A stretch of 64,000 nucleotides of DNA from Alentia gelatinosa (Eukaryota > Annelida > Polychaeta > Phyllodocida > Polynoidae): contig OX465584.1 of NCBI GenBank assembly GCA_950022655.1, positions 47,660,723 to 47,724,722 of the forward strand, given 5' to 3'. The notes under the pieces were generated by a model. It worked only from the letters and a program-made list of their open reading frames with translations, had not been told where the DNA came from and did not search any database. The number at the start of each line of letters is the position of its first letter. Within the stretch, counting starts at the first letter, position 1. Positions 219 to 3,200 of the stretch are shown in pieces. Position numbers and translations under genes: made by a program.

Positions 219-3200
219 GTATATTTTTAATAACTACTCTACAGATGAATCCTCAATGTTTCTTGTAGTTTTTTTAACATTATTCTATAGGCGTGACATT
301 GAAAAAGGAAAGGGGATCTTCAAAAATGCTTGATAATTTGAATAAAGTTCGAGCACCGTTTTTGTCAATTGTAATCATCAGATGAGGAAATAAAAGTGTA
401 ATGCTGAAGAGAAGTTGAAATCGAAGATAATGACAACTTAAATACTGGAACAGCAGTTTTGAGACCCCCAACAAATCAAGTAATTACGAATTTTATCATG
501 GTCATTCTAATTTTGGCCATTGTTACTTATTGTAGGTGTATGGGGTTGACTCTCTATGGTTACATATTGTAGGTGGTGGGGTGTGCAGGACTCAGTGGCT
601 GTAGGTGATGGGATGTGCGGGGTCGTTGACTGTCTATGGCTATTTGTTGTAGGTGGTGGGATGTGCGGGGTCGTTGACTGTCTATGGCTATTTGTTGTAG
701 GTGGTGGGATGTGCGGGGTCGTTGACTGTCTATGGCTATTTGTTGTAGATGGTGGGATGTGCGGGGTCTTTGACTGTCTATGGCTATTTGTTGTAGGTGG
801 TGGGATGTGCGGGGTCGTTAACTGTCTATGGCTATTTGTTGTAGGTGGTGGGATGTGCGGGGTTGTTGACTGTCTATGGCTATCTGTTGTAGGTGGTGGG
901 ATGTGCGGGGTCGTTGACTGTCTATGGCTATTTGTTCTAGGTGGTGGGATGTGCGGGGTCGTTGACTGTCTATGGCTATTTGTTGTAGATGGTGGGATGT
1001 GTGGGGGTTATTGACTGTCTATGGCTATTTGTTGTAGGTGGTGGGATGTGCGGGGTTTATTGACTGTCTATGGCTATTTGTTGTAAGTGGTGGGATGTGC
1101 GGGGTCATTGACTGTCTATGGCTATTTGTTGTAGATGGTGGGATGTGAGAGGTCGTTGACTGTCTATGGCTATTTGTTGTAGGTGGTGGGATGTGCGGGG
1201 TCGTTGACTGTCTATGGCTATTTGTTGTAGGTGGTGGGATGTGAGGTGTCATTGACTGTCTATGGCTATTTGTTGTAAGTGGTGGGATGTGAGAGGTCGT
1301 TGACTGTCTATGGCTATTTGTTGTAGGTGGTGGGATGTGAGGGGTCGTTGACTGTCTATGGCTATTTGTTGTAGGTGGTGGGATGTGCGGGGTCTTTGAC
1401 TGTCTATGGCTATTTGTTGTAGGTGGTGGGATGTGCGGGGTCGTTGGTGATCATCTCCCCCAAGCTTACAACACTGCTGTTCGTTGTTGTCCCGGCCATC
1501 ATCCTGACAGGTACAGGGATTGGCTCCCTGCTCCGGAAACTCAGCCGTTTAGCTCAAGCTCAGGTTAGTACCAGTTTTTATCATCCACCTAATACAAAAT
1601 ATAGACCTTCTTCACACTGGCGCCATCTTGTAATGGCCGCCAAAGTAGGTCACATGAAAATGAGGCGTGCGATTTGACTCCTGTGCGTTTTGTAGGGGAG
1701 AACACTATTTTTTTCCAAGTCGGAAAATGAGAATTTTTCTTGTGTTGTGAATAACAGGCTGATCTGTATAAGTAAAGCATTGTTAGAAAGCTAAGACTCT
1801 GGTCTATTCGTTGATATGCATATTAGATACCTATACCTTGGCTAAGATTTCCCGTAAAAGCTTGAACATCGGAATTTGTTTGCTAAAAAATATTAACACA
1901 TATTACCTTCCTGTATTTACAGGGATTTCATGAAAAATCTATCGTGATGACCTATATAAATTACCATCCTATCTTCTTCGGTAGTTCAAGACAAATAAAA
2001 TGGTACCAAGCTGTGACAGATATTTCCTGAGGTAATGAAACATTATGATAGATGACAAATAATTCAGAAGACTAAAAATGTGATTTTCTGTGGAATCATA
2101 AAATCATTAAGGTACAGGAAACAAATAGAAATATTCTCTGTGAATATTTCTTAAATTAAAAGGGGTTTAGTAGGTTAATTTTGAGAGAATTGAAGAAAAC
2201 CATATTTTCCAGTAAATTACCTATATAAATCAGCAAATGTAAATAGGCCCATTTTACATAGTGGGTTAGAACAAATTAGAAAATATTATATTTCGTTCAT
2301 CTAGTATTCAGGGATGTCAGTTGGGGTCAGAATTAAACGAGGAAATATTTTTCCTGGCAATACAGGGTTAGACATTAGATCTATATACATCAAAAAGACC
2401 TGAAATTTAATAGATACAAATAACATTATCTCTACGGACCATGGGTCTGGAGGCAGGTTAATTGGGGAATCTATGAGTCATGGCTGATTTGAGTATTTTT
2501 TAATTGTTATGTGCATTTTACACAAGAAGAAGGGATTTCTTTTTCCAAAATGAAAACACGGAATTCCGCAGAAACAAGGAAAACTGACATCCCTGAACTG
2601 TATTAGAGTATGTCCCAAAGAACCAATTTGAAGGGATACATGCCAATATTCAAAGATTCCCTTGAATGGTTCTAGCAGCTACAATATGGCCTAGTCCAGT
2701 GTTTTCACACCTTGTTCCAGAAGTCAAGACTCTCCACTCAGGTGCTATGAGGAGGTGTGATAGAAAAACAAACTGTGAAAAAAACGGGCTGTGTCTGTGA
2801 ATTCATGCCTTTACACATAGGCACCCACTGCACTGTGAAGCCACACCAGGTCGCACGCCTCGTTTTAGATTAGCACAGACACGCTGGTTCTCGGCGAGTG
2901 GTGCGCAGTTATATAAGACCAGCGCGGCCCGTTATCAAGGCGATCGTCGCGCCACGCTAATGTGCAATAGGTGAATGACTTTCGGTCTCGACTGGGAGCC
3001 GTTCTTCCTCTCGGTCCCGCTTTAGTATGCAATGGTTTTATAAATGAGCGGCAGGGTCATCAATATCAATAATGAAGAGATGACAAAGAATGGGTCTTTG
3101 AGTAGCACTAAGAACATTTCCATTGAGAGTAGGTTGTTTCGAGAATCTGATAGCAACTATTATTAATGAGCTAAATGATATTAGCAATTTTTGGCAGTCA

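Follow-up and report, generated by a model that had tools for sequence, protein, structure and literature searches.

So-called mirages, i.e., tandem repeats whose unit spans an exon-intron boundary, have been described in amphioxus Adh3 and in amphioxus globin genes, where they vary in length and, in the case of Adh3, also show somatic instability (PMC3087553). The Adh3 mirages were described by Canestro et al. 2002, as cited in PMC3087553, and the reverse-transcription PCR and Adh3 data given in that paper suggest that regular splicing is undisturbed. In lancelet PGBD5, border repeats are reported at two exons, and Adh and troponin C are mentioned as well (PMC3902484). We analyzed a stretch of 64,000 nucleotides (contig OX465584.1, forward-strand positions 47,660,723 to 47,724,722), referred to as the window, in which a first-pass annotation had noted a minisatellite at an exon border of the ABCB8 gene and had named amphioxus Adh as a precedent, which the mirage literature bears out. 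We conclude that two mirage-type minisatellites have probably grown across 3' splice borders of this single ABCB8 gene, and that the gene most likely tolerates them as nearly neutral sequence of no use to it.

The real border of exon B was obtained by homology. ABCB8 exon A, continued into exons B and C, can be aligned gap-free with human ABCB8 (5och, 7ehl; E about 2-3e-32), and the end of exon A, ...SATQ at 218, runs on into VVGCAGSL... of exon B at 1423. The acceptor 1422/1423 is hence the real one, and both the gene and the border had been named correctly. At least 15 ABCB8 exons, mapped over the window and further contig sequence, are present, and these 15 join into one open frame. Among the matches listed, the best ABCB8 relatives were those from Paralvinella (72%) and Pinctada (70%).

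Array 1 precedes exon B. Tandem Repeats Finder (TRF) places it at 600-1446 with a period of 48, 17.6 copies, 94% matches and a score of 1494, and the unit parses into ACTGTCTATGGCTATTTGTTGTAG followed by GTGGTGGGATGTGCGGGGTCGTTG, i.e., 24 nt of intron end and then 24 nt of exon start. The earlier description of about 19 copies, each made of a splice acceptor and the start of the exon behind it, thus agrees with the parsing: 20 acceptor-like sites between 536 and 1423 comprise 19 decoys and the real site. AG is found at 18 of the 20, namely at the real site and at all decoys except two, and AA stands at the latter (1087 and 1279). The sixteen near-identical decoy copies share 90-100% identity with the exon-joined copy, and individual copies hold private variants. 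Where units meet there is a TTGAC, upstream of 17 of the 20 sites, whose A lies at -24; judged by the consensus, this A is a plausible branch point. The array stops 24 nt into exon B, at 1446, and the remainder of the exon (1447-1563) is unique, so that, as had been claimed, the full exon is joined to the last copy only. Array 1 has a GC skew of +0.61; only 3 of 646 regional intervals of 818 bp reach 0.5 (maximum 0.614), and these three may be the array itself.

Array 2, of the same design and absent from the first-pass annotation, precedes the exon 10202-10349 of the same gene. Its unit starts from intron sequence with a CTAAC-like motif, many pyrimidines and either ATCAG or ATCAT, and also takes in ~28 nt from the beginning of the exon, with one difference. 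CTAA(C/T) is found upstream of 8 of the 11 sites and AG at 8 of the 11; the 10 scored decoys comprise 7 with AG and 3 with AT. This array is more diverged than array 1: identity to the exon-joined copy is 63-84% in nine of its ten complete copies and 92% in the nearest one, and one more copy, at about 9187-9295, is disrupted. In most units of the two arrays, a motif resembling a branch point, a run rich in pyrimidines and an AG are present.

Table 1. Position of the two arrays and of the adjoining ABCB8 exons in the window.
Feature	Position	Strand	Detail
ABCB8 exon A	143..218	+	upstream of array 1; donor CAG/GTATAT
Array 1, three degenerate copies	506..628	+	parsed by unit
Array 1, sixteen near-identical decoy copies, 48-49 bp	629..1398	+	last 24 nt of intron, first 24 nt of exon
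Candidate 45-nt open decoy exon	1038..1082	+	decoy acceptor to GTAAGT at 1083-1088
Second GTAAGT in decoy copy	1275..1280	+	TAG to TAA; would close 44-nt decoy exon from 1231
Array 1, exon-joined copy	1399..1446	+	acceptor 1422/1423
ABCB8 exon B, 141 nt	1423..1563	+	donor CAG/GTTAGT; human ABCB8 alignment
ABCB8 exon preceding array 2	8679..8857	+	donor CAG/GTGAGC
Array 2, units ~110 bp	8910..10229	+	TRF 8910-9849 and 9955-10229
ABCB8 exon following array 2, 148 nt	10202..10349	+	begins ALDAESERVVQEALDN

To compare decoys with real sites, acceptors were scored with a matrix built from the 13 other ABCB8 acceptors, by which the scores of these training sites themselves (8.4-16.0) are flattered. 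The real acceptor of array 1 scored 8.6, and exactly the same score was found for 9 of the 17 AG decoys. In array 2, the real acceptor scored 3.4 and the seven AG decoys 3.4-4.6. As many decoys reach the score of the real site, the real exon is not marked by the acceptor itself; the distinguishing feature sits downstream, where a full exon with its donor continues from the last copy only. Moreover, if spliced to, all 17 AG decoys of array 1 lead to a stop 33-108 nt past the junction, in 13 cases at 45 nt because the TAG of the next acceptor is in frame, and all seven AG decoys of array 2 lead to a stop after 10-247 nt.

We therefore propose exon definition combined with decay of errors. Slippage or unequal exchange would have multiplied a segment made up of the end of the intron together with the opening 24 bases (array 1) or ~28 bases (array 2) of the exon. 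The real exon would be picked through exon definition, i.e., by its full length and the donor behind the last copy, and transcripts from upstream copies would carry early stops and be cleared by nonsense-mediated decay. The arrays would hence be tolerated and close to neutral. The first-pass annotation had stated that the spliceosome must choose the last copy or that errors must be tolerated. This is reasonable, given that acceptor strength is indiscriminate and that AG decoys bring stops; either of the two may be the case.

The same stops would also be expected of a working dampener, in which the decoys divert ABCB8 pre-mRNA to stop-containing, decayed transcripts and copy number tunes expression. 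The complete set of stops (17 of 17 and 7 of 7), the recurring stop at 45 nt through the in-frame TAG of the next acceptor and the presence of two arrays in one gene would agree with this. Non-coding copies are, however, expected to hold stops without selection, and AG is gone from 3 of the 10 scored array 2 decoys. Nor does a dampener gain from the exon half of the unit having more changes than the splice half, as this difference is non-significant without CpG positions. We consider a dampening function improbable. That selection acts on the splice half was itself rejected: the 4 differences found there against 23 in the exon half gave p 0.0003, 15 of the 23 lay at CpG positions, p was 0.16 without them, and the copies are non-independent.

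In two copies of array 1 AG is lost and GTAAGT gained because TAG reads TAA. These copies are raw material for the intron-gain model put forward in PMC3087553, in which a decoy acceptor and a GT site of the array are used together, so that some copies would be extra exons or new introns. GTAAGT arises at 1083 and 1275, and the segment 1038-1082 would form a 45-nt stop-free frame, which is a concrete candidate for the model. That one case is in frame may be chance, though, and on the exonic side both GTAAGT sites carry GTT, which bears little likeness to the CAG that most donors here have; that any copy already serves as an exon or intron border is hence improbable. Our preferred reading remains that of tolerated, nearly neutral arrays.

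Two further candidates were tried and rejected. A conveyor model, in which younger copies lie near the exon, was not borne out, as identity to the exon-joined copy showed no significant increase towards the exon in array 1 (rho 0.20, p 0.41, 19 copies) or array 2 (rho 0.35, p 0.32, 10 copies). RNA structure that hides the decoys was likewise rejected: six copies (1159-1446) folded only slightly better than shuffled sequence (z -1.48; 13 of 200 shuffles were as good), and the exon-joined copy shares the local hairpin of a decoy. In the predicted RNA centroid of 1159-1446 the pyrimidine stretch pairs with the acceptor text (GUUGUAGG) through several G-U pairs, in the exon-joined copy as in one decoy.

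Tandem arrays are prone to misassembly: the amphioxus draft contained a wrongly assembled BflGb6 mirage (PMC3087553), and PGBD5 copy numbers disagree between two sources (PMC3902484). The copy number in the present assembly could be wrong. That the size or the presence of the arrays is an assembly artefact is very unlikely in our view, as the assembly is chromosome-scale (1.234 Gb in 101 contigs) and the copies carry private variants.

We also asked how tightly such arrays are linked to splice borders. Pieces of 36 bases at 15 acceptors and 14 donors of ABCB8 were scanned, ungapped, for copies within 3 kb with at most 10 mismatches. The scan found 17 copies for acceptor 1423 and 7 for acceptor 10202, and zero local copies at the remaining 27 of the 29 ABCB8 borders, all 14 donors among them. 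Against a special link speaks that, in the surrounding 264.7 kb, 50 arrays with a period of at least 15 occupy 4.7% of the sequence. In favour of a link, simulated placement gave 0.105 expected border-crossing arrays in ABCB8, and at least two such arrays were drawn in 0.47% of 20,000 runs, with a density that counts both ABCB8 arrays and a tolerance of 8-40 exonic bases that was chosen after the case had been seen. The arrays as such are certain, and it is possible that arrays are biased to borders.

Several results weigh against our preferred reading. When 300 positions were picked at random from the same 24 kb, with the arrays left in, 46 had local copies, compared with 2 of the 29 borders, and a chance origin and a border bias are not cleanly separated. 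Moreover, the real acceptor of array 2 scores under all 13 other ABCB8 acceptors, because of which leakage to the array 2 decoys is possible. A far-reaching generalization, i.e., that border-crossing minisatellites recur in invertebrate genes outside cephalochordates, arise with a preference for 3' splice sites, and in doubly hit genes act as unstable dampeners that are coupled to nonsense-mediated decay and differ in copy number among individuals and among tissues, seems to us a long shot.

Reading of the surroundings identified no exon border at the repeats at 3721, 24426, 34155, 58394 and 59853. For 23 arrays in the 264.7 kb with 98 edge-crossing reading frames, exon continuation was recognised by eye at the two ABCB8 arrays only, the other frames being read without a database search, and further mirages may sit at exons that went unrecognised. 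The repeat at 59853-61298, a minisatellite of 52-bp units (27.8 copies, 95% matches), resembles an acceptor in every unit (TTCTCCTCCCTGCACGGGTTACAG), and no exon was identified at either edge. At contig positions 47650661-47652191 lie two adjacent minisatellites whose units include a donor-like sequence (GTGAGTATGG, minus strand; AGGTAAGCAGG, plus strand), and no exon was identifiable there. The 99-bp array at 34155-34429 (2.8 copies) narrowly fails to be a border array, as it ends ~39 bp from the likely minus-strand donor 34469/34468 (GGAG/GTAAGG) of a PDZ exon. This exon belongs to a neighbouring gene on the minus strand (34449-51034) with at least 10 NHERF-type PDZ-domain segments in separate reading frames, for two of which Pfam confirmed PDZ. 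The ten segments, when joined, matched best a 1538-residue Priapulus protein (34% over 94%). In addition, a 24-bp repeat at 27405-27539 lies in a long minus-strand frame and would encode repeated TPEPVRVP-like units, and a 24-bp array at contig positions 47608007-47609300 has 54 copies, the most in the 264.7 kb read.

Since mirages are described from amphioxus, the relationship of the host matters. Branchiostoma was absent from the named matches in the best 120 of 710, the best 120 of 1,331 and the 42 matches of the PDZ gene (two genes, under length limits). Since an ortholog bearing the name Branchiostoma should otherwise rank first, the host most likely lies outside the cephalochordates. In a tree of 31 rows, which holds no cephalochordate sequence, the window grouped with three annelids and two further sequences (93/87, fork unstarred). 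The approximately unbiased (AU) test gave no rejection for a chordate (p 0.066) or a deuterostome (p 0.205) grouping; a clade that joins the window to four annelids, among them Owenia, was rejected (p-AU 0.008). An annelid host is thus favoured by the Paralvinella match and the grouping in the tree, and disfavoured by the rejected clade and by the Priapulus match of the PDZ gene. If the host is no amphioxus, as the matches of the two genes suggest, mirages extend past the animals where we found them reported, and intron gain from repeats becomes testable in another lineage. Border repeats from lineages beyond those discussed here were not recognised in any report among the matches listed in our literature searches, and other reports may exist. 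The host lineage is probably notable among mirages.

With 17 upstream AG acceptors, nine of them scoring like the real one, array 1 amounts to a natural experiment on how a 3' splice site is chosen, and usage per copy would separate a first-come, co-transcriptional choice from exon definition.

Both ABCB8 arrays consist of a tandem unit spanning an exon-intron boundary, and splice signals are kept in many copies (AG at 18 of 20 sites in array 1 and 8 of 11 in array 2). The 48-bp unit of array 1 compares with units of 10-72 bp in amphioxus Adh3 (PMC3087553), where length and somatic instability have been demonstrated, whereas the ABCB8 arrays are known from one assembly. As in both ABCB8 arrays, the repeats of the BflGb6 globin mirage span from the 3' end of the intron into the 5' portion of the exon, with splice signals kept in many, though not all, copies (PMC3087553). 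BflGb6 counts 6 units in one haplotype and 3 in the other, each of 150-160 bp (PMC3087553), and ABCB8 has 19 and at least 10 decoys. In contrast, BflGb9 copies the 3' border of its exon (PMC3087553), and no such duplication was found at the 14 ABCB8 donors tested. Minisatellites at exon-intron borders are also reported for human segmental duplications, with 27 intron modifications after manual inspection; this case differs in that it concerns primate duplicated genes and that the new introns are backed by transcripts (PMC2812944). PGBD5 resembles ABCB8 in having two arrays in one gene, with units of 60 and 108 bp compared with 48 and ~110 bp, and differs in its copy numbers of 2-7 and 3-6, the repeats being described as imperfect (PMC3902484). 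The ABCB8 arrays join this known kind, and what is notable about them is their copy number and that one gene, like PGBD5, was hit twice.
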